Positions 2,892-44,898 of a stretch of 64,000 nt of DNA are shown one piece after another. Source of the stretch: a virus; IMG/VR virus record IMGVR_UViG_3300042908_001045, positions 1 to 64,000 of that record; one strand, 5' to 3'. The position numbers and the translations under genes are program-made. Below the pieces are notes generated by a model. That model was not told the origin of the DNA and did no database searches. It saw only the letters and a program-made list of their open reading frames with translations. How positions within the stretch are numbered: position 1 is the stretch's first letter; each line of letters begins with the position of its first letter.

Positions 2892-3653
2892 ATGAAATCT
2901 ATTATAGCACAGATTGATCTTGGTTTTGCAACAATTGAAGGATTAATGTTGCCAGACGGAACTTATGCTGTTTCTGTCCCTCAGATTGCTAAATTGTTTT
3001 CATTGGGATCTTCGCATGCTGCTAGAGACATCAAAACTTTAGTCAAAAAAAGTACTTTAGTTAATCTTTCTAACCAAGAGCAAGAAAATCAAATTGATTT
3101 TGATTGCAGTAACTTTATTTCTCAAACCCAAATAGAAGGGCAAAGACATAAAATTAATGTAATTTACTTGGAATATTTTCCGTTGGTTATACATGAATTG
3201 CATAAAAAAGGTAATAAATTAGCACGTGCTTTTGCAGACGCATTATTTCTAGAAGGACTGGAAAGACGATTTGACGAAGTGTTTAAAGTCAAGAAAACAG
3301 AAGAAGTAAGAAATTTAATGGCTCAAAACAGAATACAGCATTATTTAGAAGAAGCAGAAAAAGAAGAAATGTGCAAAAAAGGGTTTGTATATCTTATTAA
3401 ATGTGGAGAATTTTACAAGATTGGAAAAACAACAAATCTAGAAAAAAGAATTAAACAGCTTACAACTGGCAACCCTTATCCTTTGGTATTGGTAAATAGT
3501 ATATATAGCTTAGATATTGACTCTCTTGAAAAGTCTTTTCATAGTTATTACAGGCAAAAAAGAATAATAGGAGAGTGGTTTAAACTAAACTTTGAAGAAG
3601 TATTAGAATTTACTAATGTAGCATCTATGGCTGAAATGTCTTTCTGTAAATAA
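2892..3653 (+). CDS. Antirepressor-like protein with T5orf172/MUG113 GIY-YIG-like C-terminus, 253 aa
   Basis: Two-part protein. Residues 1 to about 150 resemble phage antirepressor or BRO-type regulators: the PDGTYAVSVPQIAKLF start, then the PLVIHELHKKGNKLARAFADAL helices. Residues 165-245 resemble the T5orf172/MUG113 branch of the GIY-YIG fold, with GFVYLIKCGEFYKIGKT, a following Lys/Arg-rich helix, and GEWFKL near the end. Such fusions are usual in phage regulatory proteins. Whether the nuclease-like domain cuts DNA cannot be told. The gene is divergent from the HigA-like gene and ends in a strong bidirectional terminator. Confidence 0.72.
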   Translation: MKSIIAQIDLGFATIEGLMLPDGTYAVSVPQIAKLFSLGSSHAARDIKTLVKKSTLVNLSNQEQENQIDFDCSNFISQTQIEGQRHKINVIYLEYFPLVIHELHKKGNKLARAFADALFLEGLERRFDEVFKVKKTEEVRNLMAQNRIQHYLEEAEKEEMCKKGFVYLIKCGEFYKIGKTTNLEKRIKQLTTGNPYPLVLVNSIYSLDIDSLEKSFHSYYRQKRIIGEWFKLNFEEVLEFTNVASMAEMSFCK

Positions 3654-6910: not shown

Positions 6911-7534
6911 ATGTTCTCTAATGTTAAAATAGTTGCCTCTTTGGTTAATCCTATTGCATTAAACGATAACTGGACCCCTAGCTTTGATGGGATTTTGTCA
7001 TATCAAATTTTGTTTAACGCTAGAATGCTTAAACAAAATCCTAGCATCGACCAAGTAAAGTCGGGATTAGCAATAGTAAAAGAGAATATCCCATTAGAAA
7101 TTGGGTATTTATCCAACGAAAAAACAAGTTGGTATTATAAAGCTAGTAGTCCGCACTATGTATTAAACAAAAAGCACAATCTTGGTACTGGAGCTACAAA
7201 ACCATGGAGAGTAACTTCTGAACTTACATGGTACTGTCGTGCTGATTTAGAAAAAATAGAAGAACTACTAGAGGCTATTCAATCGATAGGCAAATACAGA
7301 ACGCTATCTTATTCTGGTGTTAAAAGCTGGTTAGTACAAGAATTAGTAGAAGATTGTCATGTTTGGAAAGACAATAGACTTAGTCGTCCGGTCCCTTGTA
7401 TTTATTTGCAAGATGACAAGCGTGTACTCATGTGTGATTACAGGATAAAAGAGTGGGGATGGAGATGTCCCCCGTATTTGCCAGATAATCAAGCACAATG
7501 TTATATGCCTTTACACAATATTTCCAATGAGTAA
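6911..7534 (+). CDS. Second Csf3/Cas5-like protein (type IV CRISPR), 207 aa
   Basis: Clearly homologous to the Csf3 of the operon at 13496-14194. Shared blocks are PIAxxDNxxPSxDG (residues 14-27), SSPHY (79-83), the Gly-loop region (126-140), RLSRPVPCIY (147-156) and CYMPLHN (197-203). In Cas5-type RAMP proteins the Gly-rich loop helps hold the crRNA 5' handle. Here GYGQV of the operon copy has become SYSGV, so that loop is degenerate. The gene overlaps the thymidylate-synthase-like gene by eight bases (ATGAGTAA), so the two are co-translated. No other csf gene adjoins it. It could be a swapped or inhibitory subunit of the type IV-B complex or a repurposed RAMP. The start lacks an obvious ribosome site. 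Confidence 0.78.
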   Translation: MFSNVKIVASLVNPIALNDNWTPSFDGILSYQILFNARMLKQNPSIDQVKSGLAIVKENIPLEIGYLSNEKTSWYYKASSPHYVLNKKHNLGTGATKPWRVTSELTWYCRADLEKIEELLEAIQSIGKYRTLSYSGVKSWLVQELVEDCHVWKDNRLSRPVPCIYLQDDKRVLMCDYRIKEWGWRCPPYLPDNQAQCYMPLHNISNE

Positions 7535-8930
7535 CAACATTGCCATAGCAACAGGCTGGACAATTGCTTCTACCGTTTCTAAACACTTAGATCCAAGCAG
7601 TTATTTTGTCATAAAAGAGTTATATTCTTGTACTCCGGGAATTAATTTATTAGTTCGTAATTTACTAGCTAACACAACTATTCGTTATTTATTTTTGTTG
7701 AAAGCCAGTAAATATGATTTAAACTCTGGCTCTATAGATTGTGTCTTGGATTTTTTTGCTAAAGGAGTTCAACTGGGAAAGACAAATGGTGGGAGAACAG
7801 CATGGATAGTAGATTCAAAATACACGGCTTATATTGATGCTGAAATACCAAGTATTGCACTTGATAGTTTACGTATGTCTGTTCAAGTGTATGAATTTCA
7901 AGACATTTCCTCACTAGTAGAAAAAGTTAAATCTTTTAGTGATAAAACATCTAATCCTTGGGCTTCTCCAATGATATTTCCAGAACATAAGCCAGTTAAT
8001 CTAATAACTCCTGGGCAGTTAAATGGGCATAGAATAGAGTCAAGATTTATCCATGAAGCATGGGTCAAAATATTGCATAGAGTAAGAAGTAATGGCAAAA
8101 TTAGTGTAAGTTCTAGCGATATTTTATGGCAGGAGCTACTAAACGTTATTACTGTTATTACAGATGAGCCAGAAGATTTGATATTTCCAGAGCCTAACTA
8201 TTTGCCCATAGATAATTTTTTTATTGAAAAATATGTTTATCAAATGTTAAACGGTGGAGATAATTCTAGTAGTTATGGAACTAGAATGATTAGTCATTTT
8301 GGCATTAATCAAGTTGAATCTGTTGTTAATAATCTAAAAAACAACAGAATTTCTAACAGACTTGTAATTAATCTATGGGATGTTCAAAGTGATATAAAAT
8401 CACCGTCTCCACCATGCTTAAATCATGTTTGGGTTAAAATATATGACAATCAATTGTACATGACTGCAACTTTTCGCAGTAACGATATGTTTTCTGCATG
8501 GACTTCTAATGCCATGGGATTAAGAAAACTGCAATACCATATTTTCAATCAAATCAAAGAGCATTATTTAGATGTTAAAATGGGTTCTTTGTCTATTATT
8601 AGTGAAAGCGCTCACATTTATGAAGACTCTTGGACTGCTGCTGATGATATTATTCAGTGTCATTATCAACGTATTGTTAATAGGAAAGTTTTTGAAGACC
8701 CTGTTGGAAACTTTGTTATTCGCATTGATGATAATGCCATTTTAGTCACTCACGTAACTAAAGATGGTGAACAAGTAGCTAAATACACTGGCAAGTCAGC
8801 TACTTTGATTTGTAACAAAATTGTAGCTAACAATCCATCTATATTACCAGGACATGCGGCTTATCTTGGAATAGAATTAAATAGAGCTGAGAATAGCTTA
8901 CTCTTCGGCAAAACCTACTCTCAGTTCTAA
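7527..8930 (+). CDS. thyA: Thymidylate synthase-like protein with DUF4346-like tail, 467 aa
   Basis: The central part carries thymidylate-synthase landmarks: catalytic PPC with Cys297, the phosphate-binding RSND (317-320), Asn328 in the position that reads uracil, and HIY (363-365). The RSND...AW..NAMGLR pattern resembles archaeal-type enzymes more than bacterial ThyA. The N-terminus, with GINLLVRNLLANTTIRYL near residues 38-55, recalls MtrA-like pterin proteins. The C-terminus (about 389-460, with HAAYLGIELNRAE) matches my memory of cyanobacterial DUF4346. It likely methylates or hydroxymethylates dUMP for phage DNA. The retained Asn argues for dUMP over dCMP. It is coupled to the csf3-like gene and ends in a terminator. 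Confidence 0.72.
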   Translation: MSNNIAIATGWTIASTVSKHLDPSSYFVIKELYSCTPGINLLVRNLLANTTIRYLFLLKASKYDLNSGSIDCVLDFFAKGVQLGKTNGGRTAWIVDSKYTAYIDAEIPSIALDSLRMSVQVYEFQDISSLVEKVKSFSDKTSNPWASPMIFPEHKPVNLITPGQLNGHRIESRFIHEAWVKILHRVRSNGKISVSSSDILWQELLNVITVITDEPEDLIFPEPNYLPIDNFFIEKYVYQMLNGGDNSSSYGTRMISHFGINQVESVVNNLKNNRISNRLVINLWDVQSDIKSPSPPCLNHVWVKIYDNQLYMTATFRSNDMFSAWTSNAMGLRKLQYHIFNQIKEHYLDVKMGSLSIISESAHIYEDSWTAADDIIQCHYQRIVNRKVFEDPVGNFVIRIDDNAILVTHVTKDGEQVAKYTGKSATLICNKIVANNPSILPGHAAYLGIELNRAENSLLFGKTYSQF

Positions 8931-8956
8931 TGTCTCTGTATTGTTGTCTCCTCTTT

Positions 8957-8983
8957 AGCCATCTGAAAAGATGGCTTTTATTT
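8957..8983 (+). terminator. Intrinsic terminator
   Basis: AGCCATCT (8957-8964), GAAA loop and AGATGGCT (8969-8976), followed by a T-rich stretch. It ends the csf3-like/thymidylate synthase operon and serves the convergent gene too. Confidence 0.8.
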
Positions 8984-9251
8984 ATAATTCACTTTTCCAG
9001 TAATTATTAAAAACTCTAATACCACCAGGACTAAAAGACAGTATGGCTATGGTTAATGCCAACTTATTAAATATTTCAGCAGCAGCGCCTTTTTTCTCTC
9101 TTTTATCAGCAAAAAGTAGCGTGTCACCATGAGACGCGATTAATTCTTGTATGCCATCTGGAATAGCCGGTAAATAGCCTAGCTTTTTTATCTGAAGCAC
9201 ATGCAAAGGTACTGCGCACTCTAAAGACGGTATTAATACGTGATTTTCCAT
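8982..9251 (-). CDS. Hypothetical protein, 89 aa
   Basis: Unrecognised small protein with a moderately hydrophobic middle (residues 58-75, IFNKLALTIAILSF) that may be a membrane segment or a buried helix. It is convergent with the thymidylate synthase-like gene, and the shared terminator lies at its stop codon. Confidence 0.55.
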   Translation of the reverse strand: MENHVLIPSLECAVPLHVLQIKKLGYLPAIPDGIQELIASHGDTLLFADKREKKGAAAEIFNKLALTIAILSFSPGGIRVFNNYWKSEL

Positions 9252-9327
9252 TGTTTTCAGTGATTACATTACTAGTATTTTACCTTAGATTGTTGAGTGG
9301 TAAGCGTTGTATGAATTTAAAATATTT

Positions 9328-9368
9328 TTCAGAAAACACTTGACACTAAAATAAAAGTAGTTTATATT
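9328..9368 (+). promoter_or_regulatory. Consensus promoter with conserved upstream box
   Basis: TTGACA (9340-9345), 17 bp, TATATT (9363-9368). It is preceded by TTTTCAGAAAACAC, an upstream sequence shared with the promoters at 23795 and 44559. Confidence 0.8.
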
Positions 9369-9394
9369 GAGTAGCGAGTAATCAAGGAGATATT

Positions 9395-9886
9395 ATGAAC
9401 ATTCAAGAAAAAATAGATAACATTCAAATGAACAATTTAGCTAATTACCTGCGTGTGCAGGGTGTTAGCTCGTTGGAAGAATACAAGCAAAGCAAAAAAC
9501 AAGAGTTTCTGGAGTGTGCGGATACTCCAGAAGAAGGAGAGGATGATTACAAAAAGTGGCTCGCCACTTTAGACAAAGTCCTGTCTAAAGTGACAAATGG
9601 CGGCTCCTACCCCATAGATCTCCGTTATTGGGAGATGGTGGAGGAAAAACAGTTATTTCCACAAGACGTTGTGGAGTACTTCAATGCCAATGATGGCAAA
9701 GAAGTATTAATGCCAGTAGAATACTTCTGCTCAGGACAGGAGTTGGCTGCACTCCAAGAAGCAGCACACTGGACAAAAGATACTGTTCAGGTTGAGATTG
9801 CTGGACAAATTCTAGGAAATATTCCAGAACGTCAGCCGGACCCGGCAAACAATCCACCAGCTAATAGTGGATGGGATAGCTGGTAA
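9395..9886 (+). CDS. Hypothetical acidic protein, 163 aa
   Basis: Unrecognised, strongly acidic protein (for example TPEEGEDDYKKW) with a helical N-terminal half and a Pro/Asn-rich tail (QPDPANNPPANSGWDSW) that looks flexible. A canonical AAGGAG site and a consensus promoter point to high expression early in infection. An acidic, early, abundant small protein is compatible with a DNA mimic or host-takeover factor, but this is only a suggestion. A hairpin closes the unit at 9901. Confidence 0.68.
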   Translation: MNIQEKIDNIQMNNLANYLRVQGVSSLEEYKQSKKQEFLECADTPEEGEDDYKKWLATLDKVLSKVTNGGSYPIDLRYWEMVEEKQLFPQDVVEYFNANDGKEVLMPVEYFCSGQELAALQEAAHWTKDTVQVEIAGQILGNIPERQPDPANNPPANSGWDSW

Positions 9887-9900
9887 TAGCATTGCTTTTT

Positions 9901-9932
9901 AAATTATACTTTTTGCCTTAAAAGTATAATTT
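9901..9932. terminator. Hairpin after the acidic-protein gene
   Basis: AAATTATACTTTT (9901-9913) and AAAAGTATAATTT (9920-9932) are perfect 13-base inverted arms. The following T-run is short, so termination may be partial. Confidence 0.6.
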
Positions 9933-10130
9933 AGTCAAATAGAATTGTACTTGAATATTAATTCAGGGAAAATCCTATGGTAGTTACTTTTTACTGAAAA
10001 TAGGGCATTGCATAATAAAGTATGAGTTTAAGCAAGAGAGATGAAATGTCCAAAGTGTAATGTTTTTTATTTATATTGCCATTGACAACATAATTTGGTA
10101 ATATAGAATCAGGAGTTACAACAAAAATAA
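9933..10130. other. Intergenic stretch with a 14-codon frame
   Basis: No long gene is present. The frame 10041-10085 begins MKCPKCN, like the zinc-ribbon start of an InsA-type protein, and stops after 14 codons. It may be chance or the relic of a lost zinc-ribbon gene. I see no clear promoter for the SSB-like gene here. Confidence 0.3.
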
Positions 10131-10451
10131 ATGAATGTTATCGTATTGACAGGAATAGCGTTGAAGCCAAAACAAATTGAATTGCCTTGGGGAAAACCAG
10201 GTATTGAATTTGTGATAAAAGTTCAGCCTACAAAGCCAGGAGAACTTGATTATTTCTTTAAAGTAATTGCATCTGAAGCTAGCAGCTTTAAGGAGCAAGA
10301 TACTGTCTTGATAGAAGGTTATCTTGATATAAATCAAGAGGAATTACCAAATGGCAATAAAAATAAAAAAGCCGTTATTTACGGCAAAAAAATTGAGGTG
10401 ATAAACACCAGCTACAAAGCAGAAAGTAGCTTAGATAGTATGCCATTTTAA
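10131..10451 (+). CDS. SSB-like single-strand DNA-binding protein, 106 aa
   Basis: An OB-fold-sized protein that opens MNVIVLTGIALKPKQIEL, like SSB family starts. It ends SSLDSMPF, resembling the acidic, Phe-terminated SSB tail that recruits partner enzymes. It is shorter and more diverged than the second SSB at 15767-16087, so it may be a specialised paralogue. It is convergent with csf2 and shares a bidirectional terminator with it. Family call is moderate. Confidence 0.65.
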   Translation: MNVIVLTGIALKPKQIELPWGKPGIEFVIKVQPTKPGELDYFFKVIASEASSFKEQDTVLIEGYLDINQEELPNGNKNKKAVIYGKKIEVINTSYKAESSLDSMPF

Positions 10452-10454
10452 AGC

Positions 10455-10485
10455 AATAACCTCCGAATTATACTCGGAGGTTATT
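10455..10485. terminator. Bidirectional terminator between SSB-like gene and csf2
   Basis: AATAACCTCCGA (10455-10466) and TCGGAGGTTATT (10474-10485) form a perfect 12-bp hairpin followed by T-rich sequence on both strands. It closes the type IV-B operon. Confidence 0.85.
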
Positions 10486-10490
10486 TTATT

Positions 10491-11627
10491 TTATTCCAGA
10501 AAGCTAGAAGTATTGGTTTTGCTTAAAAAATCAGATAAAGCGGTTAATTTAGTTTTTGCTCTATCAGACAAGATAGATGAATTCTCAGTAATTGTTAGAT
10601 ATTGACCTGCTTCTTGTCCAGAGCGATAGTAAACATCAACAGAAACCAATCCACATCCAGTGTTTCCTTTACCTCCTAGATAAGGTGCCAAAGCAAATTC
10701 AGACAGAGCATTAACGATAAAACCTTCCTCTACAGAAGTTATATCACTATCCCACCGGCTAAGAAGAGTGGAGCCTTTTTGGAGTAGCCAATCACCCATA
10801 ATCATCTGTTGGCTCTTAGATTCTTTTTTGTCTTTCTTTTTATCACTTGCTCCGAATAAAGATATCTGTCCTTGGTTTTCCTGTTCTAAATGTTTTGCAA
10901 GTTCAGAATCTTTTAAGCTATCTTGTCTGGTTTGCTGCCTATACGTTAAATATTGCGTATAAGGCTTTAGATCATTTTCTAAATTTGGCATCCATTTTTC
11001 AATAGCATTTCTGTATTTTTCTGTGCTAACAACTGAATTAATGTTGTTTAACCAGTTTTCAACTCGTGATTTTTCTAGTTCGTTTTTAGCTTCTACAATC
11101 TCTTTAACTGCTTCTAAACAATTGTAAGGAATAGCAGCAGGAAGAGTGTTGTAGATATATTCAGCTGTTTCTAAACAAACTAAATATGCTCCACCCACAT
11201 TGATGCGCCCTGGAATCATCTGTGATTCTTTAGAGCCAAATAGTCCAGTTGGCTTAGCAGTTCCCAGTAAAGAAATGCCAGGAAGATATGTTCTAATCTT
11301 TTTGTCTAGCTCTAAATCGTTGCCTGTAGAGCCGTCGATAAAACCGCCAGCAAACATAGTTTGATGGGTAGTAGGATTTACAGAATATCCACCTTCCTTG
11401 AGTTTATTTAAGAAAGAACTATTACCTATTCTTCTTAATATTTTGCCTCTTAAAGCATTGCCAGAATAGACAAATACTTCTGCACTATTGTTCTCTAAAT
11501 CTCTGACCTTTTCAACTCTTAAATTGCTCTGATTCCCAATAGCTTCACCAATATGCGATAAAGGTGATAATAACTTGATTACCAAATAAAACGTTATTTT
11601 ACTTCTATTTTCGTATGGATTATACAT
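10491..11627 (-). CDS. csf2: Csf2, Cas7-like backbone subunit of a type IV-B CRISPR complex, 378 aa
   Basis: A RAMP-type protein: the first strand and loop (YLVIKLLSPLSHIGEAIG), then SGNALRGKILRR near residues 54-65, then a Gly-rich loop LGGKGNTGCGL around residues 320-330. This architecture and length fit Csf2, the repeating backbone subunit that coats the guide RNA in type IV complexes. A charged, low-complexity insertion (DKKKDKKESKSQQ) sits in the middle. It is the last gene of the operon, overlapping the small-subunit gene by eight bases. Assignment rests on motif layout plus the csf1, cysH and csf3 neighbours. Confidence 0.8.
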   Translation of the reverse strand: MYNPYENRSKITFYLVIKLLSPLSHIGEAIGNQSNLRVEKVRDLENNSAEVFVYSGNALRGKILRRIGNSSFLNKLKEGGYSVNPTTHQTMFAGGFIDGSTGNDLELDKKIRTYLPGISLLGTAKPTGLFGSKESQMIPGRINVGGAYLVCLETAEYIYNTLPAAIPYNCLEAVKEIVEAKNELEKSRVENWLNNINSVVSTEKYRNAIEKWMPNLENDLKPYTQYLTYRQQTRQDSLKDSELAKHLEQENQGQISLFGASDKKKDKKESKSQQMIMGDWLLQKGSTLLSRWDSDITSVEEGFIVNALSEFALAPYLGGKGNTGCGLVSVDVYYRSGQEAGQYLTITENSSILSDRAKTKLTALSDFLSKTNTSSFLE

Positions 11628-12117
11628 TATTTTCTTCCTCTTCTGTAAGTTTCAATTCTTTTTCTTCTTCATGTCTTAGCCTAACTAATGCAGCAATTAG
11701 ATGGGGACAATCTTTAATTTGTTTTAAGATATGTCTATCAGTAACTCCTTGCATCTTTAAAGAATGTAAAATCTCTTCCCATCCCATCCATTGAAGTTTT
11801 ACATTCTCTTGATCTTGCTTCAACTCAACAATTTCGTCTTTGTTGTTAATCCTAAGTATTTTTTGTTGTGGGTTTAGTATTCTAGAAAAAACTGATGGAT
11901 TTAAATGATTTACCACTAGTTTTTTGGAGAAATTTTCTATGAAATCTGATACACTCCCACTAGGAATAACAGCATTAGACAGAGATGATTGAAAATATTC
12001 CCATGTCTTGATTCCCATTGCAGGAGACTTGTCTTTGTCCCTGCATAAAAAGCACCAGTAACTTAATGCACTGGCTAATCCTATTTTTGAATCATGCGTC
12101 TGAAATCCGTGCCACAT
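11620..12117 (-). CDS. cas11: Small-subunit (Cas11-like) protein of the type IV-B operon, 165 aa
   Basis: A mostly helical protein with no catalytic motif, placed between csf1 and csf2 exactly where type IV-B loci carry the small subunit that lines the belly of the complex. The C-terminus is a charged helix (HEEEKELKLTEEEENN). Sequence alone would not identify it; position and size do. It overlaps csf1 by 26 bases and csf2 by eight, so translation of all three is coupled. Confidence 0.68.
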   Translation of the reverse strand: MWHGFQTHDSKIGLASALSYWCFLCRDKDKSPAMGIKTWEYFQSSLSNAVIPSGSVSDFIENFSKKLVVNHLNPSVFSRILNPQQKILRINNKDEIVELKQDQENVKLQWMGWEEILHSLKMQGVTDRHILKQIKDCPHLIAALVRLRHEEEKELKLTEEEENNV

Positions 12118-12751
12118 ATCCTAACAGCGCTCCATAAGAAGTTGCTCTTGTCTCTTTTATTTTAGACTCTAATTGAGTCCATTCGTCAATACATTTCATT
12201 AATCTATCTGATCTATATTCCCCTGACATAATTTCTGTTTTTGAAAAACCAAGTTGCATAAGTTTTTCAAAATAATTCAAAGACTCAATAAAGTCTAGTC
12301 TATTTAGCCAAACAATTTCCTCTTCTAGTAAAACTGGAAAGAAATTTCTGTCATAAGCTACATGTCTAAATGGATAAGTATGCTTTTGTCCAGAAGTTGC
12401 TAAACAAATAGAGAATGGTGGTTCTGGTGGATCTATTATCCATTTTTTAATTAATTCTCTAGTTGGAATTTTGGTCGCAACTGGCAAATTATCACCATGG
12501 GGAGATTCACCAAAAGTAAAGACGGGATATCTCTCGGTTGTAGATTCAAGCCAACTCCAACATCTAGCAAATACTTTACTCCATGCTTGTTTAGATTCAT
12601 TGTAATACCATGCAGAAGTAGTGATAGCAAAATTACACTTATCGCAAATTAAGTTAGAAAAAGGATTTTTAGCCCTAGATCTCGCGGTAAATTTGTCTCC
12701 TAGTACTAATTTTTTACTAGCAGATTCTCCACAGAAAAAACAAGTTGTCAT
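12092..12751 (-). CDS. csf1: Csf1, zinc-finger large-subunit-like protein of type IV CRISPR, 219 aa
   Basis: Starts with a four-cysteine zinc finger (Cys4, Cys7, Cys36, Cys39) followed by a mixed alpha/beta body, the hallmark layout of Csf1, the signature subunit of type IV systems. A CxxC-x28-CxxC arrangement at the extreme N-terminus plus the flanking cysH-like and csf2 genes supports the call. Unlike large subunits of other class 1 systems, no HD or polymerase-type catalytic domain is visible. Its start overlaps the cysH-like stop by four bases. Confidence 0.8.
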   Translation of the reverse strand: MTTCFFCGESASKKLVLGDKFTARSRAKNPFSNLICDKCNFAITTSAWYYNESKQAWSKVFARCWSWLESTTERYPVFTFGESPHGDNLPVATKIPTRELIKKWIIDPPEPPFSICLATSGQKHTYPFRHVAYDRNFFPVLLEEEIVWLNRLDFIESLNYFEKLMQLGFSKTEIMSGEYRSDRLMKCIDEWTQLESKIKETRATSYGALLGYVARISDA

Positions 12752-13494
12752 GTATACCTCCTAATCTCTGGAAACATTAATGCAAACGCTTCATATTTAT
12801 CAGGAAAATGTAATCTCAGATTAGCTATTCGCCCCCAATTAATACCGGTTGTTCCAATTGGTGGTCCATTTCTAACAGTCATTCTATCTATGTCATACAT
12901 AGCAGGATATTTCAAACTAAAGTTATCAATATATTGCCAAATAGCTTCAGTTCTCCAAAATCCAACAGGACTGCAAACGACTAAATCAGCTTTAGTTTTA
13001 TAAACTAATCCATGTTTTTTCAAGTACAATGCTCTTCCTTTACTTTCTTGAGATCTAATGCCCCAAGCATATCCTTTGATATTGTTGTTTTCTGTGTACT
13101 CATCAAGTGGATCATACATCAACTTTTGATTAATAATTTTGTCCAGCTTAGTATTCATTTTACCGTCTAACGGAATGCCGTAATCTACATAAAGATTAAG
13201 TAAAGAACGAACTGGACAAAGTTCAACAACGTTTAATCCTTGCTCTTTATAATCTTCAATTAACTCTATACAATCTTCCCATTCAGCTAAGTGTCCTTGA
13301 TTGACCCAAACTAATGGGCATTGTGGATAGACAGTCGTAATCAAATGTGCGGCAACTAGACTGTCTTTGCCACCGGAGATTGAGCAGTAAACTTGAAAAT
13401 CGCACTCTATTAGCCACTGCTCAATAACTGTTTTAGCTTTACTAATAACAGATTTTAACCATGGTGCTTTAACGCCAGTTCCGGTAGATAACAT
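12748..13494 (-). CDS. cysH: CysH-like PP-loop protein of the type IV-B operon, 248 aa
   Basis: An adenine-nucleotide alpha-hydrolase of the PAPS-reductase fold. The PP-loop SISGGKDS is at residues 38-45 and the family motif GIRSQESKGR lies near residue 160. The cysteine motif (ECGxH) used by assimilatory PAPS reductases is absent, so it is unlikely to reduce sulfate. A cysH-like gene is a recognised hallmark of type IV-B loci; its job there is unknown. It may activate a substrate with ATP to modify a nucleic acid or a subunit. It lies one base after csf3 and overlaps csf1 by four. Confidence 0.85.
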   Translation of the reverse strand: MLSTGTGVKAPWLKSVISKAKTVIEQWLIECDFQVYCSISGGKDSLVAAHLITTVYPQCPLVWVNQGHLAEWEDCIELIEDYKEQGLNVVELCPVRSLLNLYVDYGIPLDGKMNTKLDKIINQKLMYDPLDEYTENNNIKGYAWGIRSQESKGRALYLKKHGLVYKTKADLVVCSPVGFWRTEAIWQYIDNFSLKYPAMYDIDRMTVRNGPPIGTTGINWGRIANLRLHFPDKYEAFALMFPEIRRYT

Positions 13495-13495
13495 T

Positions 13496-14194
13496 TTATA
13501 TTTTTACCGTATTATGCTTGGGCAAATAACACATTCTGCGGTTAGATAATAGCCAACCAGGTGGTTTAATACTCCAAACCAATTTTGGACAATCAACAAA
13601 TCTTGATGATACATTTTCATAAAATTCTTGTGCGTATTCTACAGGAATAGGGCGAGCTAATTTGTCTTTTCTGAAAAGATGATAATCCTGGTCTATAAAA
13701 CAAACTTCCCATTGAGAAACCTGCCCATATCCGTAGCTAGTTTTTTTCCCTAGTGCTTTACACGAAGTAATAATTTCCATAATTTCTTTGGCATTACCTA
13801 CCGCAAACCAATCAATTCTAGAAACTGTTTTAACTGGTAATGGTAAATCGTAAGATTTAGTATGTCCTACCGAAACATCTACTTTAGCTTTCTTTTTACC
13901 CCAATTACAGTTAGACTCCTGATAATCCCATCTTTTCCTGTATTTAGCTATTACAGCTTCAGAATATTGGTAATGAGGTGAACTGACAGCCCAATACCAA
14001 TCATCATTGCTTAGTTTAATTTTTAGTAATGGCAAATCAACATCAATTAAATCCGCTTCAGTTGGATTGGGATTAATAGGTATTCCCTGTTTTAACAAAA
14101 AAAAGTACTGCAATAATCCATCTAATGATGGACTATAGTTATCGTAAACAGCGATAGGCGACTGCAAATGTGCCGTTATTTGTAAATTTTCCAT
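13496..14194 (-). CDS. csf3: Csf3, Cas5-like subunit of type IV-B CRISPR, 232 aa
   Basis: First gene of the operon. Motifs: PIAVYDNYSPSLDG (13-26), SSPHY (71-75), LGKKTSYGYGQV with the RAMP-type Gly-rich loop (148-159), RPIPVEY (171-177) and CYLPKHN (222-228). In class 1 complexes the Cas5-type subunit caps the guide's 5' end. It has an intact Gly loop, in contrast to its paralogue at 6911-7534. A likely promoter lies at 14215-14243. The order csf3, cysH, csf1, cas11, csf2 puts csf3 first, whereas I recall it last in plasmid IV-B loci. Confidence 0.8.
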   Translation of the reverse strand: MENLQITAHLQSPIAVYDNYSPSLDGLLQYFFLLKQGIPINPNPTEADLIDVDLPLLKIKLSNDDWYWAVSSPHYQYSEAVIAKYRKRWDYQESNCNWGKKKAKVDVSVGHTKSYDLPLPVKTVSRIDWFAVGNAKEIMEIITSCKALGKKTSYGYGQVSQWEVCFIDQDYHLFRKDKLARPIPVEYAQEFYENVSSRFVDCPKLVWSIKPPGWLLSNRRMCYLPKHNTVKI

Positions 14195-14243: not shown

Positions 14244-14298
14244 TATATGTCTTAATACTGGTTGCTAAAATTAGCTGCAAAATGCAATAAATAAGTCT

Positions 14299-14333
14299 AA
14301 GCACTATAGAACATTTTTTATTCTATAGTGCTT
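14299..14333 (-). terminator. Hairpin terminator of the 108-aa gene
   Basis: AAGCACTATAGAA (14299-14311) and TTCTATAGTGCTT (14321-14333) are perfect 13-base arms just past the stop of the leftward gene at 14338. It insulates the CRISPR operon from upstream transcription. Confidence 0.75.
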
Positions 14334-14337
14334 ATAA

Positions 14338-14664
14338 TCAGGTGCTAGCTTGTACTTTTTTAGATTCTTTACTTCTTTGTTTCCATTCTTTATTTACCAT
14401 TTCTAAATAATCTGGCAGCACGCTAGTCCACAAAATACCATATATAGCAAAACCTATCATTGCAGCAGTAGTTGAGTAGTCTTGATTGATTGGAATATGG
14501 GTTCTTATTCCTATGGATTTGTTATGGACTTGTATACCATTTTCGTCTAAAGACAATTCATCAAATATATCTAGTAATTGATTCATAATCTTTAGTTGCT
14601 CAAATATTTCCTCAATTGGTTTGAACGTCAAATCACACAAATATTTTGATATTTCTACTGACAT
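14338..14664 (-). CDS. Hypothetical protein, 108 aa
   Basis: Unrecognised. A moderately hydrophobic stretch, STTAAMIGFAIYGILWTSVL (about residues 64-83), may cross the membrane, and the C-terminus is very basic (KEWKQRSKESKKVQAS). AGGAG sits just upstream of the ATG. It is the second gene of a two-gene leftward unit, nine bases after the 67-residue gene. Confidence 0.6.
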   Translation of the reverse strand: MSVEISKYLCDLTFKPIEEIFEQLKIMNQLLDIFDELSLDENGIQVHNKSIGIRTHIPINQDYSTTAAMIGFAIYGILWTSVLPDYLEMVNKEWKQRSKESKKVQAST

Positions 14665-14917: not shown

Positions 14918-15505
14918 ATGAAAAAAATAACAATATCAGCCATAGAGACGTGGGATGTTAAACGTCCTATTCCTTACGATAAGAACGCAAAATTACATCC
15001 TGACTCACAAGTAGAGCAAATAGCTAATAGCATTACTGAGTTTGAATTCTTAGACCCAATTGCTGTTGATGAGAAAGGAGTAATTTTAGAAGGACATGGA
15101 CGATTATTAGCTGCTCAAAAATTAAATTTAGCTACAGTTCCTGTTATTATCATTTCTGGACTGTCTAAAGAGCAAAAAATAGCGTATAGACTTGCTCATA
15201 ATAAAATCTCACATAATTCCGGATTTAACCCAGAATTACTTCAAGATGAGTTATCTTTTCTAGATGACAATAATTTTGACATTGAACTAACAGGCTTTAC
15301 TTTAGACGATTTGAACTTTGGAGAGGACCTATTGGATTGGGAAGAGCCATTTAAACAAGAATCTATTGAGCCAGAAGAAACAGTACTTAAATTAAAAATT
15401 GCAACGGAGTACAAACAACCATTGCTAGATGCATTAGACATAACAAAACCCAATCCATCTGCAAATGAATTGGGTGATGCTTTAATTAATTACTTGCAAC
15501 TTTAG
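14918..15505 (+). CDS. ParB/sulfiredoxin-fold nuclease-like protein, 195 aa
   Basis: The N-terminal half is a ParB N-terminal-like domain: PYDKNAKLHPDSQVEQIANSI, then GVILEGHGRLLAAQKLNLATVPVII with the hallmark GHGR (about residues 59-62). No centromere-binding helix-turn-helix is evident, so this is the stand-alone type that in phages usually neighbours methyltransferases, not a partition ParB. The C-terminal half is acidic. Its 3' end overlaps the convergent 90-residue gene by four bases. Activity (nuclease or CTP-dependent clamp) cannot be told. Confidence 0.82.
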   Translation: MKKITISAIETWDVKRPIPYDKNAKLHPDSQVEQIANSITEFEFLDPIAVDEKGVILEGHGRLLAAQKLNLATVPVIIISGLSKEQKIAYRLAHNKISHNSGFNPELLQDELSFLDDNNFDIELTGFTLDDLNFGEDLLDWEEPFKQESIEPEETVLKLKIATEYKQPLLDALDITKPNPSANELGDALINYLQL

Positions 15506-16685: not shown

Positions 16686-19600
16686 ATGTTTAACGCAGCT
16701 ACCGCTAATCCAGTATTTTACAGAACATATTCTCGCCATACAGAGTATGGACGCGAATCATGGGAACAAGTTTGTTCTAGAACGTTAAAAGCGTTGGAAA
16801 AACTAGGTAAATTAAACACAGAAGAAATTGCATTAATTACTAAAATGCAAAGCAGTATGAAATCATTACCTAGTGGTAGATGGCTTTGGGTTGGCGGCAC
16901 AAAATGGCTGGAAAAGCCAGCTAACTACTCTGGAGCCTATAACTGCACGTCAACTAACTTAACCAGCTGGAACGCCTTTGCTTTAATGATGGATCTAGCT
17001 ATGATGGGCTGCGGAACAGGAGCAGTCATTGAGGAAAAATACTTTAGCAGATTACCGAAAATTACTAACAGTATTAACATCGATGTTTTTGGTGAACCAG
17101 GAGATGTATCACCAGAAGAAAGACAAGAAGAAACGTCCTGGACTGCCGCAGGTAACGGAAAATTTGTTATGTATGTTGGTGACAGTCGCAACGGATGGGT
17201 TGAAGCATATAAATTATTACTGGAAGCGGCTTCTAATACTATGTATCAAGGAGAGATAAGCATAAGTGTTTGTTTATCTCATGTTCGTCCAAATGGTGAA
17301 CCACTAAAATCATTTGGTGGAGTTGCTAACCCTGTTAAAATTAAAGACCTATTTGTGCGTTGCTCTGCAATACTTAATAAAGCAGTTGGTAGGCAGCTGT
17401 CATCCATAGAATGTTGTTTGCTAATTGATGAAGCAGCAAGCACTATAGTGGCTGGAAATATTAGGCGGTGTTTACCTGGCAATGCGTTAGTGCATACAGA
17501 GTCAGGCTTAGTACCTATCGCTAAGATAAGAATAGGAGATCGTGTTCTTACCAGCAAAGGATTTTACCCTGTAACTAACTTCTTTGATCAAGGTGAGCAA
17601 TCTCTTTGCAGAATCAAAACTCAAGACGGTAGTTTTGAGTGTACAGCAGAACACAAGATTGCTGTGTTAACAGATGTCTATGGCAACTACAAAATGGTTA
17701 AAGCCAAAGACTTGAAGCAAGGTGATAGATTGATACGTGTTCTAGAAGCCACAGAATTAATACCAGTTAAATTTGTGGACATTGAGTTTGATGTACGAAC
17801 TGCTCCCACTTACGACATAGAAGTTGCCACTGTGCATGAATTTGTGTGCGAAGGCATCTTAGTTTCAAATAGCGCCGGCATGCGCCAGTTCACTTCTAGT
17901 GATAACGTAGCTGCTAACGCTAAAGCAAATCTATGGGAGCAAACACCAACTGGAGAGTGGAGAATAGATCCAGAGAAAGATGCTTTGCGCATGGCAAATC
18001 ACACCAGAGTTTTTCACCAAAAGCCTACTTATAAGGAGGTGTTTGATTCAGTAACAAGTCAATATTGGAGTGGTGAAGGAGCAATTCAATGGGCTGGTGA
18101 AGCTGTCGCCAGAGCAAATGCAGATTTATTGATTACCCAAAAGTTAAAAGCAGAGTTCTTGAATGCTTATGAGAATGGTGGAGCCAAGGAATGGATAAGA
18201 AAAAATTATCCAAGCATGCCACATGCGGAGATAGAACATAGAGTAAGTACATATGGATTAAATCCGTGTGTTACTGCTGATACATGGATTCACACAGAAA
18301 AAGGAGCGAGGCAAGTTAAAGACTTGATAGGCAAACAAACCAGTGTTTACGTTGATGGAGAATTATTTAGCACCACACCCGAAGGTTTTTGGCTAACAGG
18401 AATCAAGCCTGTGCTAAAAGTGATTACTCAAGAAGGATATGAGTTGCGTTTAACTGACAATCATCAGCTACTCAAAGTTACTGCCCAGACTCAACGTAAA
18501 CAATATTCTGAGTGGACTGAAGCTAAAGATTTAAGTCCAGGACATTATATTTCAGTCCATAACCATCGTGAAGCACAGCATTGGGACAGTTTTGGAACTT
18601 TTGACGAAGGCTGGTTAATTGGCAATTTAATTGGCAATGGCAGCATCTCGTCAACACAGTGGGGGAAAACAGCACTTTTGCGATACTGGGAAGATTCTCA
18701 AGATGAGATGGGAAGACATGCTGTTGCTCTACTTGAAAAAACTGTTGATTATGCTGGAACTACAGAATCTGGACATTACTATGAACAGCAGAATTATCGA
18801 GTAGTCCAATCAACAGGATTAGCTAGATTAGCTGCTAGTTATGACGTTACGCTAGAGAACAAAATGCCAACAGGTAAAATCGAAGAAGCAAGTTATGAAT
18901 TTTACCGTGGTTTTTTACGTGGCTTATTTGATGCTGATGGGAGCGTGCAAGGAAATCAACAAAAAGGCATTAGCATCAGATTGTCACAAAGCAATCTAGA
19001 GACTTTGAAAATAGTCCAAAGAATGCTGGCGAGATTAGGTATTATCTCAACAATTTATCAAAAAGCACAACATGAACTTGTTATCAGTAATGATAATATC
19101 TGTGTCTTTCAAAACATTATTGGATTCCAAAAACCTGACAAAGCTAATCGCTTGAATGAATTAATTACCAGATATGAGCCAAAATTAAATCGTGAGCGAT
19201 TTGTAGTTAAAATCAAAGAGATTATACCCGATGGAGTAGAAGCAGTTTTTGACTGTACTGTTCCGGGAGTTTCTCGATTTGATGGTAATGGAATTGTCGC
19301 CCATAATTGTGGTGAAATTATTGGTAGCAATTTCCATTGTGTTAGTGGTGACACGCTACTAATTACCAAAGATGGATTACACGCAATCAAAGATGTTGTA
19401 GGATGCGATGTTGAGATTTGGAATGGTAGGAATTGGAGTCAAGTACAGCCATTTAAAACTGGCAGTTCTCGCGTTCTTTATCGTGTACGATTTGCGGATG
19501 GTACGTATTTAGATGCTACCGAATATCATAGATTCTTTGTTAAGGATAGGTTTGGCAAAGAATACAAAGAAGTACAGACAAAAGACTTAATGGATGCAAG

Positions 19601-22487
19601 TAAGTATCGTATTCACACCAAGCCATTTACTATTCAGTATGATGATGGATTGGATATTGATACTAATTATGCTTATGTCTTGGGGGTAGCCGTAGGAGAT
19701 GGCACCACAGACAAAGACGACAACGCAAAAATAAGATTGTATGGCAAAAAAATTGCCTTGTCTGTGGCAGGTAATAAGTCTCCCATTAGGGAATATGAAT
19801 ACGTTACAAACTTCACTGATGTTACAAATTTAAGCTTTTCTGGGGAATTTCTGAAGAGTCTCAAAACCAAACCAGAAGCATTAAACATCATAGCAAGTTG
19901 GAATCGTGAAGCAATTTTGCATTTTATTGCTGGTTTAGCAGATACAGATGGAACAAATAGTAGTGGCAATGGTATTAGAATCTACATCTCTGATTATGAC
20001 AGAGCGTATAGAATACAATTGTTGCTAATTAAGTGTGGCATTCGCTCTTCTGTCAATCTTTGTGCTTATAAAGGAGCAGTTACAAACTATGGAGTTAGAA
20101 GTAAAGATTTGTACTGTGTACAAGTAACTGATTGTAGTAAAATCCCTTGTCAGCGATTAGACGTAAGCCAAGGTAGAGTACCTAAATTTAAAGGTAAATG
20201 GCAAGTTATCAGGAGTGTGGAGCAATTACCGGGATTGCATGACACTTACTGTTTTAATGAACCACAATATCATGAAGGTGTATTTGGAAACACATTGACT
20301 GGGAATTGTAATTTGTCAGAAATACACTTGAATCAGCTCAATCCTACTGACTATAAAGAACAAGAAGATGCTTTTAAAGCAGCTTCACTCTCAGTAGCTG
20401 CATTGCTTCACCATAGATTCACCGAGCCTATTTATCAAGAATCTAGAGAGTTAGATCCTATTGTTGGTGTTTCCTTCACCGGATTATTTGACTTTTTTGT
20501 TCATGCTTTTGGAGCAGAATGGCTTCACTGGTGGCAACAAGAGAGAGAAGACAATGAGCAAGGCAGGATATTTAAACAAAAAGAACAAGAGTATTTATCT
20601 AGATGGAAAGACATAGTACATCAAACTGTTTGGGAATATTGCGATAAACACAATCTCAAACGTCCTAATCGTTGTACTACTGTTCAGCCCAGTGGGTGTT
20701 TAGATCGCACTGCATTAAGAATTTTTGATCAAGGCTTACTTTATGCGGATGAATTGATAGCACCTGGCAGTGGTGAAACTACTAATTTGAAACTAAGTGT
20801 TCGTGAAGGAGTGTCTGTTACCACAGGAATTGCTAATCAACCATTGCAATTGATTAAAGTCACATTACAGAATGGACGTATTTTACGTATGACTCCAAAC
20901 CATCGTCTTTCTATTGATGGAAACTGGATTTATGCGTCTGACATGACTCCTGGAATGAAGATTGATTTTAGTCTTGGGGAATATCAAAACACCCAAGAAA
21001 CTCCATTACTTGATATAGATCAATTTAGCTATACAAGAGAAGCGAGGCAATTAGAAGCTGGACATAATCGTGGCATCACAGCAACTATCATTAAAATGCC
21101 TAAAACAATGTCGCCTGACTTAGCTTATTTTATTGGAGCATTGTTTGGGAATGGATGTTTAAGTATATCCGGACATCGTATTAGGTTTTCTAGTAATAGT
21201 TATAAATTACTAGAAAGACTACAACAAATAGCACAAAATCTGTTTGTTGTAGATGGGAAAATCAATAAATACTCTGACAGAGCAGCCTATGAACTAAGCA
21301 TTTCTAGTGTTCAGCTTTATAATTGGTTGCAATTGACTGGAATAGCTAAAACGGAAAAAAGTTTAAATCTTGACAGAATACCATTAGCTATTCGTTGTTC
21401 CTCCAAACAAAGCATTTTATCGTTTTTCTGTGGATTAATTGACACTGATGGATGTATTAGGTCTAACGGTTCAATGTCGATTGATAGCGCCAGTGAAGAT
21501 TTCATTAGAAATCTTCAGCAAATTGGTGAAGCTGTGGGATTATGCTTTTCTATATTCCATAACACTCAAGGAAAGAACAACCAAGCACAGAAAAGTATGT
21601 GGGGTTTATGTTTAAGCCGCATGTTATCCAAACCTGATGCTTTAGATTATTTAAACAAGAATAGTCAAAAAGCTGAGATTCGTCCTATTCCTTCACTCAA
21701 GAGAAACTATAAGTTTGATCCATATCTCATTGAATCTGTGGAATGGGAAGAAACTCCTGATTATAGCTACGACTTTGCAGTTCAGGGAGAGGACGACAAT
21801 GATTCATGGTATTGGCAAGGAGCGATTAAATCACACAACACAAAGTCTTTGTTAACTGGCGCTTCTCCTGGTTGGCATCCTCCCAAAGCACAACAATTTA
21901 TCCGTCGGATTACTTTCCGTAAAAATGATCCAGTAGCATTGGCATGTATAGACTTTGGCTATAGTGTAGTTCCATCACAATCAGATAAAGATGAAAATGG
22001 TAACTTATTAGACAACCCATTTGATGAACGTTGTACAGAATGGTTAGTGGAAATACCAGTAGCTGTATCTTGGGCAAATCTACCAGGAGTTGATGTTGAT
22101 ATTTCCAAATTCTCCGTGTTGGCACAGTTTGATTTTTATATGCAAGTGCAGAAGTATTACACAACTCACAATACTTCAGCCACACTTGAACTACGCCAGA
22201 ACGAAATTGGTGCTTTAAGTAGAGCTATATATGACTCAATCGAAAACAATGACGGGTATATTTCTGCTGCTATTCTTAGCCGTTTTGACGATTTCCAGTC
22301 TTATCCTAGATTGCCTTTTGAGCCTATTAGCAAGGACAAATACTTGCAGTTAGTAAAAGAGGTAAATCAAAGAAAAACTAATGACGATTTCTTAAATGCT
22401 TTACACAAGTATGATAATGGATTTGATGACCAATCAGGACCTGCTCCATGTGATTCAGATAAATGTCTTTTACCGGAGTCAAAGTGA
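16686..22487 (+). CDS. nrdJ: Adenosylcobalamin-dependent (class II) ribonucleotide reductase with four inteins, 1933 aa precursor
   Basis: After protein splicing the exteins sum to 748 residues, the usual size of monomeric B12-dependent ribonucleoside-triphosphate reductase. Landmarks are YNCTST with the N-terminal redox cysteine, NPCGEI with the thiyl-radical cysteine (residue 875), HCNLSEIHLNQ, TTVQPSGTKSLLTGASPGWHPP, and the C-terminal CDSDKC pair that re-reduces the active site. Four inteins interrupt it at residues 262-395, 528-874, 885-1207 and 1338-1718. The enzyme makes dNTPs without oxygen or a second subunit. There is no clear ribosome site, and no B12 riboswitch is recognisable upstream. 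Confidence 0.93.
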   Translation: MFNAATANPVFYRTYSRHTEYGRESWEQVCSRTLKALEKLGKLNTEEIALITKMQSSMKSLPSGRWLWVGGTKWLEKPANYSGAYNCTSTNLTSWNAFALMMDLAMMGCGTGAVIEEKYFSRLPKITNSINIDVFGEPGDVSPEERQEETSWTAAGNGKFVMYVGDSRNGWVEAYKLLLEAASNTMYQGEISISVCLSHVRPNGEPLKSFGGVANPVKIKDLFVRCSAILNKAVGRQLSSIECCLLIDEAASTIVAGNIRRCLPGNALVHTESGLVPIAKIRIGDRVLTSKGFYPVTNFFDQGEQSLCRIKTQDGSFECTAEHKIAVLTDVYGNYKMVKAKDLKQGDRLIRVLEATELIPVKFVDIEFDVRTAPTYDIEVATVHEFVCEGILVSNSAGMRQFTSSDNVAANAKANLWEQTPTGEWRIDPEKDALRMANHTRVFHQKPTYKEVFDSVTSQYWSGEGAIQWAGEAVARANADLLITQKLKAEFLNAYENGGAKEWIRKNYPSMPHAEIEHRVSTYGLNPCVTADTWIHTEKGARQVKDLIGKQTSVYVDGELFSTTPEGFWLTGIKPVLKVITQEGYELRLTDNHQLLKVTAQTQRKQYSEWTEAKDLSPGHYISVHNHREAQHWDSFGTFDEGWLIGNLIGNGSISSTQWGKTALLRYWEDSQDEMGRHAVALLEKTVDYAGTTESGHYYEQQNYRVVQSTGLARLAASYDVTLENKMPTGKIEEASYEFYRGFLRGLFDADGSVQGNQQKGISIRLSQSNLETLKIVQRMLARLGIISTIYQKAQHELVISNDNICVFQNIIGFQKPDKANRLNELITRYEPKLNRERFVVKIKEIIPDGVEAVFDCTVPGVSRFDGNGIVAHNCGEIIGSNFHCVSGDTLLITKDGLHAIKDVVGCDVEIWNGRNWSQVQPFKTGSSRVLYRVRFADGTYLDATEYHRFFVKDRFGKEYKEVQTKDLMDASKYRIHTKPFTIQYDDGLDIDTNYAYVLGVAVGDGTTDKDDNAKIRLYGKKIALSVAGNKSPIREYEYVTNFTDVTNLSFSGEFLKSLKTKPEALNIIASWNREAILHFIAGLADTDGTNSSGNGIRIYISDYDRAYRIQLLLIKCGIRSSVNLCAYKGAVTNYGVRSKDLYCVQVTDCSKIPCQRLDVSQGRVPKFKGKWQVIRSVEQLPGLHDTYCFNEPQYHEGVFGNTLTGNCNLSEIHLNQLNPTDYKEQEDAFKAASLSVAALLHHRFTEPIYQESRELDPIVGVSFTGLFDFFVHAFGAEWLHWWQQEREDNEQGRIFKQKEQEYLSRWKDIVHQTVWEYCDKHNLKRPNRCTTVQPSGCLDRTALRIFDQGLLYADELIAPGSGETTNLKLSVREGVSVTTGIANQPLQLIKVTLQNGRILRMTPNHRLSIDGNWIYASDMTPGMKIDFSLGEYQNTQETPLLDIDQFSYTREARQLEAGHNRGITATIIKMPKTMSPDLAYFIGALFGNGCLSISGHRIRFSSNSYKLLERLQQIAQNLFVVDGKINKYSDRAAYELSISSVQLYNWLQLTGIAKTEKSLNLDRIPLAIRCSSKQSILSFFCGLIDTDGCIRSNGSMSIDSASEDFIRNLQQIGEAVGLCFSIFHNTQGKNNQAQKSMWGLCLSRMLSKPDALDYLNKNSQKAEIRPIPSLKRNYKFDPYLIESVEWEETPDYSYDFAVQGEDDNDSWYWQGAIKSHNTKSLLTGASPGWHPPKAQQFIRRITFRKNDPVALACIDFGYSVVPSQSDKDENGNLLDNPFDERCTEWLVEIPVAVSWANLPGVDVDISKFSVLAQFDFYMQVQKYYTTHNTSATLELRQNEIGALSRAIYDSIENNDGYISAAILSRFDDFQSYPRLPFEPISKDKYLQLVKEVNQRKTNDDFLNALHKYDNGFDDQSGPAPCDSDKCLLPESK
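17469..17870 (+). other. Intein 1 of the reductase (mini-intein, 134 aa)
   Basis: Begins with Cys after GNIRR and ends VSN before SAGMRQF. Splicing blocks are visible (CLPGNALVHTESG; GSFECTAEHKIAV; EFVCEGILVSN). No homing endonuclease domain fits in 134 residues. The penultimate residue is Ser where His is usual. Confidence 0.9.
18267..19307 (+). other. Intein 2 of the reductase (LAGLIDADG type, 347 aa)
   Basis: Begins CVTADTW after LNP and ends AHN. It has two LAGLIDADG-like helices (WLIGNLIGNGS and FLRGLFDADGS), so a homing endonuclease is probably intact. The +1 residue is the cysteine of NPCGEI, the catalytic radical site. Confidence 0.92.
19338..20306 (+). other. Intein 3 of the reductase (LAGLIDADG type, 323 aa)
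   Basis: Begins CVSGDTLL after SNFH and ends TGN before CNLSEIHL. Endonuclease motifs are YVLGVAVGDGT and FIAGLADTDGT. It lies only 10 extein residues after intein 2. The penultimate residue is Gly where His is usual. Confidence 0.9.
20697..21839 (+). other. Intein 4 of the reductase (LAGLIDADG type, 381 aa)
   Basis: Begins CLDRTALR after QPSG and ends SHN before TKSLLTG. Endonuclease motifs are YFIGALFGNGC and FFCGLIDTDGC. The +1 residue is Thr, and the insertion splits the conserved substrate-loop motif. Confidence 0.92.
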
Positions 22488-44694: not shown

Positions 44695-44898
44695 ATGAGT
44701 AATATTGAACACCCAAAACATTATCAGCAAGCAGATATTGAGTGCATTGACGCAATTAAAGCAGCATTGTCTTCTGAAGAGCTAAAAGGCTTTATAAAAG
44801 GGAATATCATAAAGTACACTTGGCGAAGTGACCATAAAAACGGATTAGAAGATCTCCAAAAAGCTCAATGGTACTTAAATTGGTATTTGAATTTATAG
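44695..44898 (+). CDS. DUF3310 protein, 67 aa
   Basis: Matches the compact phage DUF3310 pattern: HPKHYQQADIECIDAIKAAL, then FIKGNIIKYTWRSDHKNGLEDLQKAQWYLNWYL. The family is common in phages and is sometimes annotated as nucleotide kinase-like; its role is not established. Its 3' end overlaps the convergent sigma-like gene by six bases. Confidence 0.85.
   Translation: MSNIEHPKHYQQADIECIDAIKAALSSEELKGFIKGNIIKYTWRSDHKNGLEDLQKAQWYLNWYLNL

Follow-up and report, generated by a model that had tools for sequence, protein, structure and literature searches.

Positions 10491-14194 of a 64,000-nucleotide stretch of viral DNA hold a compact set of type IV-B clustered regularly interspaced short palindromic repeats (CRISPR)-Cas genes. 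The stretch (hereafter the window) comprises positions 1-64,000 of IMG/VR record IMGVR_UViG_3300042908_001045, a tailed-cyanophage contig of 86,305 bp. The five genes, csf3-cysH-csf1-cas11-csf2, lie on the minus strand and form a self-contained accessory cassette that is cleanly inserted into the phage genome; a second Csf3, which appears to lack the Cas5 thumb, is encoded elsewhere in the window (csf3b). We tentatively propose that the cassette specifies an effector ribonucleoprotein (RNP) for guide-directed silencing, and that the thumbless Csf3 acts as a mimic of an effector subunit.

An earlier reading, made from the sequence only, had described five tightly packed leftward genes at this locus. 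All of the open reading frames (ORFs) were confirmed; they overlap or sit 1 nucleotide (nt) apart, and their PADLOC and Pfam matches are far beyond chance. The first gene of the operon is csf3 (13496-14194), which encodes the type IV Cas5 with a basic thumb segment (PADLOC Csf3_0_IV, 3.8e-42). It is followed by a cysH-like gene for a PP-loop protein (CasCysH, type A, with the motif SGGKDS; 12748-13494; Pfam PAPS_reduct, 1.6e-12), csf1, specifying a Cas8-like large subunit of 219 amino acids (aa) (12092-12751; PADLOC Csf1_0_IV, 1.9e-23), cas11, specifying a small subunit (11620-12117; PADLOC type IV Cas11, 4.2e-10 and 3.8e-9), and csf2, encoding the Cas7 backbone (10491-11627; PADLOC Csf2_0_IV, 1.6e-39). 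Csf1, Csf2 and Csf3, without which the sequence-only reading could not stand, were thus each recovered. The four-Cys finger at the N terminus of Csf1 also held up, the pattern CxxC...CxxC being present in every homologue listed. A search of the PDB with a Csf2 profile found the type IV-B Csf2 7jhy (1.4e-6), and the AlphaFold2 (AF2) model of the operon Csf3 (predicted local distance difference test score (pLDDT) 84.6, with low confidence at the thumb, about residues 81-118) had as its top Foldseek match 8rc3_F, the Csf3 of a type IV-A1 complex (9.4e-13).

Type IV-B is defined as including an ancillary CysH-like gene that has a PP-loop and lacks the catalytic C-terminal Cys (PMC8175902). The PP-loop of CysH is invariant in A3, and the window protein has no Cys beyond residue 174, so that the C-terminal Cys is missing. 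With Csf2, Csf3, Csf1, Cas11 and this form of CysH, the gene content of the operon is that of type IV-B. Neither dinG, csf5/cas6 nor an array occurs in the operon or its immediate flanks, which sets the locus apart from type IV-A, and type IV-C, which needs a Cas10-like large subunit with an HD domain, is ruled out by the 219-aa Csf1. In agreement with what had been described, cas6 (Cas6b model) and the adaptation gene cas1 are absent from the whole 86,305-bp record. An Rfam search at the operon found no RNA.

To place the virus we used its large terminase (32641-34146, plus strand; phrog_2, 3.6e-23), which is 69% identical to the terminases of Cylindrospermopsis raciborskii virus CrV and phage Cr-LKS4; dozens of further genes of the contig match these two genomes. 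By sequence, the virus is a relative of these cultured, lytic Cylindrospermopsis phages, and given this kinship its host is most likely a filamentous freshwater cyanobacterium. Together with the profile matches, the terminase supports the presence of a type IV-B gene set on a tailed-phage genome. The locus had been assigned to a "phage or phage-plasmid", of which the tailed phage is borne out by terminase kinship, whereas the phage-plasmid has a ParA-like gene in its favour and other tests gave no pointer to it. This ParA-like ATPase (AAA_31, 3.9e-32; 26051-26956, minus strand) is without a match in CrV or Cr-LKS4, and together with a ParB-like gene at 14918-15505 it may hint at partitioning.

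The site of insertion is evident from comparison with relatives. On the left the operon is flanked by a 106-aa single-stranded DNA-binding protein (SSB)-like gene (10131-10451, plus strand; homologue at 8195-8404 in relative G003) and on the right by a 108-aa gene (14338-14664, minus strand; homologues at 8503-8787 in G003 and 12092-12388 in G008). In G003 these homologues are separated by 99 bp, as opposed to 3.9 kb between the flanking genes of the window, and Csf2 is missing from all 14 of the terminase-related records in which it was sought, several of which are short fragments; the operon is therefore an accessory cassette. It is bracketed by two terminator-like hairpins, one in the gap that separates the end of csf2 from the SSB-like gene (10455-10485, plus strand) and one upstream of csf3 that parts the operon from the 108-aa gene (14298-14334, minus strand).

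The Csf2 clade to which the operon belongs is largely viral. Searching IMG/VR with a Csf2 alignment returned 21 contigs, all of which carry csf3, 14 of which carry a terminase gene and none of which carries cas1; only one of 386 sampled cyanobacterial genomes has a Csf2 of this clade, and that one had served as the centre of the sample. The first of two scans of genome contigs for Csf2 found none and the second a single contig of a Spirulinaceae metagenome-assembled genome (MAG), while no match was found among the sequenced phages of INPHARED. In the tree the clade (16 rows, support 97/98) unites viral contigs, a Gloeobacter plasmid and the Spirulinaceae MAG, and a long branch sets it off from the other plasmid homologues. 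The statement that type IV-B is known mostly from plasmids holds in general, but this Csf2 clade is mainly viral. By terminase, the phages that bear the operon make up at least five groups, and one of these phages, G029, belongs to the window's own phage lineage (terminase 65-66%).

Six operon-bearing contigs (G019, G020, G021, G027, G028 and G029) contain CRISPR arrays of 10 to 28 repeats, 3-10 kb from the operon. Their repeats are 37 nt long and mostly end in TTGAAAC or CTGAAAC. Neither cas1 nor cas6 was found on any of the six; the contigs that do have cas6 are G016, G017 and G033, and the two of these examined in full, G016 and G033, hold no true array. The close relatives G020 and G021 have nearly all spacers in common. 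G027 and G028, however, are 99.0% identical in the operon region and have the same repeat, yet of their 13 and 19 spacers, respectively, they share just one. Because phages so nearly identical have only one spacer in common, spacers must have been acquired or lost on viruses that have no cas1, which implies turnover in trans. The spacers of G029 also differ from those of sibling contigs, a weaker case as one array lies at a contig end. The repeat of G027 and G028 recurs in G029, whose terminase is of another lineage. Short periodic repeats in G000 (the window's contig), G003, G006, G008 and L002 were rejected as arrays by eye, as they have an uneven repeat-spacer pattern or lie inside long ORFs. 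Cr-LKS4 has an unannotated, array-like stretch of four repeats (68118-68378, minus strand; 18118-18378 of L030), whose repeats are about five mismatches from those of its annotated arrays.

One and the same position in the operon is filled by either of two CysH families, type A of the window and type B, with the motif SWGKDS. A comparison of L011 with L012 gives 28% identity for CysH and 95-98% for the remaining four operon proteins. Since CysH is exchanged while the rest of the complex is conserved, it looks like an effector module. In locus L010 (1699-8665), one csf2 and one cas11 are surrounded by three csf3 genes, a type A and a type B cysH, and two copies of csf1. In L011 and L025 the type B CysH gene is followed by a conserved partner gene (1e-21) with a weak, sub-threshold match to Coq4; this partner, located at L079 10040-10732 and L025 5797-6414, has an HDxxH motif.

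The second Csf3 gene, csf3b, had not been noticed in the sequence-only reading and is a core gene of the phage lineage. It lies between the genes for a class 3 lipase and thymidylate synthase (6911-7534, plus strand; PADLOC Csf3_0_IV, 3e-26), and orthologues are present in G003 (71%), G009 (57%), Cr-LKS4 (gene g60, 33%) and CrV, those of the latter two being annotated as hypothetical. Profile searches of CrV and Cr-LKS4 found neither csf2 nor cysH, and G003 and G009 are likewise without csf2. Alignment indicates that csf3b lacks about 30 residues, reading RKRW...WGKKKAK...KSYDLPL in the operon Csf3, and that its Gly-loop sequence is altered. The frame is intact in five phages, and in comparison with L114 the rates of nonsynonymous and synonymous substitution (dN, 0.156; dS, 0.836) give a dN/dS of about 0.19, equal to that of the adjoining thymidylate synthase gene (about 0.20); csf3b is under purifying selection. 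A single-protein scan for csf3b found none, and an alignment scan found four loci. Its AF2 model is confident (pLDDT 91.0; predicted template modelling score (pTM) 0.87), and its top Foldseek matches, which it has in common with the operon Csf3, are Csf3 chains of type IV-A complexes (8rc3_F, 3.7e-10). In type IV-A, the Cas5 thumb and the Csf1 zinc finger recruit DNA, and in IV-A3 replacing the thumb arginines with alanine abolishes interference (PMC11519345). By its position in the alignment and in the models, the missing segment would correspond to this thumb. Like a subunit mimic, csf3b is an effector-subunit homologue without an element essential in IV-A3, as judged from alignment, AF2 and Foldseek (PMC11519345), and it is plausibly a candidate Cas-derived inhibitor or an alternative cap.

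Our tentative proposal draws on the gene identities, the insertion, the viral distribution, the arrays and spacer turnover of relatives, the exchange of CysH and the selection on csf3b. In the type IV-B RNP, Csf2 would form a filament along with Cas11, and Csf3 and the zinc-finger subunit Csf1 would be its caps; the complex very likely assembles, by analogy, as in PDB 7JHY, and CasCysH would be its partner. During infection the complex would be loaded with short guides, either CRISPR RNAs (crRNAs) from viral arrays such as those of relatives, matured by a host Cas6, or guides of the host, and would silence rival mobile elements or genes of the host by binding and not by cleaving them. CysH may switch on a modification that depends on a nucleotide and varies from one CysH family to the other. 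The thumbless Csf3, keeping the Cas5 fold without the DNA-recruiting element, would most likely imitate a subunit and in this way block or reset the type IV complexes of competitors. A role in competition between mobile elements, as had been suggested, would fit this scheme. Because relatives have arrays, we regard guide-directed action, against rivals or against genes of the host, as the leading reading, with moderate confidence; the main rival is an RNA sponge, which we consider below. A more far-reaching version, which we think doubtful, is that the cyanophage type IV-B lineage is a guided weapon that updates its spacers, having its own effector, array and exchangeable CysH and relying on the host for adaptation and for the processing of crRNAs, and that the thumbless Csf3 of related phages is a Cas-derived inhibitor.

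Several observations weigh against our proposal. Csf1, Csf2 and Csf3 score well under the cut-offs of their NCBIfam models, from which we take the operon to be a divergent member of type IV-B. The 86,305-bp record yielded no CRISPR array. This accords with the description of the locus as array-less so far as the contig is concerned but not for the virus: the contig is incomplete, ending in a diverged inverted repeat (left arm at 1-873, right arm at contig positions 85426-86305; 87% over 888 nt), CrV and Cr-LKS4 have a region of inverted gene order with annotated arrays that is mostly missing here, and relatives including G029 hold the operon together with arrays. We therefore cannot say that the virus is without an array; contig G012, which is nearly identical, extends about 5 kb beyond ours, and no array was seen there. 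Among 105 spacers compared with relative phages there was no full match except for one CrV/Cr-LKS4 spacer, which resembles dispersed copies in CrV and Cr-LKS4 themselves, and otherwise short partial matches; two single-spacer scans of IMG/VR hit array-bearing contigs only, with no target beyond the arrays' own phages. Two of the phage repeats were absent from the 386 cyanobacterial genomes, which leaves dependence on a particular host's Cas6 unsupported. The only type IV-B complex studied bound heterogeneous RNA and not crRNA (PMC7937560). Finally, csf3b accompanies a type IV-B operon in the window's virus only, which leaves inhibition of type IV complexes a candidate role.

Other explanations account for parts of these data. 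Rather than an inhibitor, csf3b could be an alternative cap or assembly factor for the virus's own complexes or for phage-encoded guides. CrV and Cr-LKS4 do have a thumbless Csf3 together with arrays, and full Csf3 occurs two or three times over in other operon phages (L025 and L010); we nevertheless find this somewhat unlikely, as the csf3b lineage is mostly without Csf2, and hence has no filament of its own to cap, and as the segment lost would be the DNA-recruiting thumb. As a sponge, the complex would not target anything but would coat and sequester small RNAs, such as the crRNAs of the host, and thereby shield the virus from RNA-guided defence of the host. This idea, laid out in PMC8175902, fits the missing array of the window's contig and a purified type IV-B complex that formed on non-specific RNA (PMC7937560), but it leaves CysH unexplained and sits poorly with spacers that differ between near-identical phages and with the conservation in the operon of both DNA-recruiting elements known from type IV-A (PMC11519345), the Csf3 thumb and the Csf1 zinc finger; we judge it unlikely. 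We are equally sceptical that the arrays of relatives are mini-arrays that hijack type I or III effectors of the host, the nearby operon being unrelated. Viral arrays without Cas genes are known (PMC11656645), CrV and Cr-LKS4 have arrays and neither csf2 nor cysH, and the arrays stand 3-10 kb off, outside the operon; yet arrays recur on operon-bearing contigs across several terminase lineages, and the repeat of G027/G028 is found also in G029, of another terminase lineage. That csf3b is the decaying pseudogene of an earlier type IV operon is highly improbable given its dN/dS, and its intact frames and confident fold also speak against it, despite the lost segment and altered Gly-loop.

Elsewhere in the window, a ribonucleotide reductase frame of 1933 aa (16686-22487, plus strand) has several apparent inteins, to judge by its splice-like boundaries (HN/C) and by inserts of homing type that recur in it, and relatives match it in parts only. 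A MUG113/T5orf172 domain protein of the GIY-YIG kind (2892-3653, plus strand) is a possible homing endonuclease. A match to DUF3800-VIII RNA (RF03075; 2467-2560, plus strand), barely above the gathering score, adjoins a small gene shared with CrV. A sigma-70-type factor of the phage with regions 2 and 4 (44893-45828, minus strand) is kept in CrV and G029. A search of the window for tRNAs found none.

The function of type IV-B, its bound RNA and the purpose of CysH are open questions (PMC7937560, PMC8175902). The clade described here offers handles that plasmid systems lack, namely arrays with spacer turnover beside type IV-B, a CysH swapped at a fixed slot and a stand-alone thumbless Csf3, and the presence of the last in two phages with sequenced genomes that infect a bloom-forming cyanobacterium makes a type IV-B role testable in real phages. 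According to a 2024 review (PMC11656645), it is an enigma that viruses have turned CRISPR RNAs into inhibitors while apparently leaving Cas proteins aside; a candidate exception, testable by a simple interference assay, is the thumbless Csf3. Our literature search, in which subscription papers and preprints were mostly not covered, found no report of the cyanophage Csf2 clade, of long arrays beside type IV-B or of an orphan thumbless Csf3.

Type IV-B on viruses is itself already known. The Bathyarchaeia virus Fuxivirus (PMC10848311) is likewise a tailed virus with csf genes, cas11 and a CysH-like gene, and a passage of the same paper cites type IV systems in prophages and lytic phages. Fuxivirus is an archaeal virus whose mini-array has two repeats with a single spacer (PMC10848311), whereas the cyanophages have relatives with arrays of up to 28 repeats and spacer turnover, several csf3 genes and an exchanged CysH. 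The type IV-B locus of Mycobacterium sp. JS623 (PDB 7JHY, PMC7937560) has csf1, csf2, csf3 and cas11, lacks an array and cas6, and matches the window at the level of Csf2 profiles, but it resides on a megaplasmid; the window represents a tailed cyanophage with cysH in the operon, a separate thumbless Csf3 and array-bearing relatives. Plasmid pGMOR1 of Gloeobacter morelensis (L006, operon at 7038-12470) belongs to the same Csf2 clade (39% identity) and has cas11, csf1, csf3 and cysH, although its operon includes cas6 and a cupin gene and its CysH is of another family; no array lies in the 17 kb examined. Type IV-A1 and IV-A3 effectors (PMC11519345; 8rc3, 8rc2) provide the top structural match for both Csf3 copies of the window, whose operon differs in lacking dinG, csf5 and an in-operon array and in having CysH and Cas11. 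Viral inhibitors that derive from or mimic Cas proteins, such as AcrIF3 and the dead Cas9 of phage (PMC11656645), resemble csf3b in being Cas-like proteins that viruses keep outside a working system; beside them, the thumbless Csf3 would be a Cas5-type example, as a candidate inhibitor.

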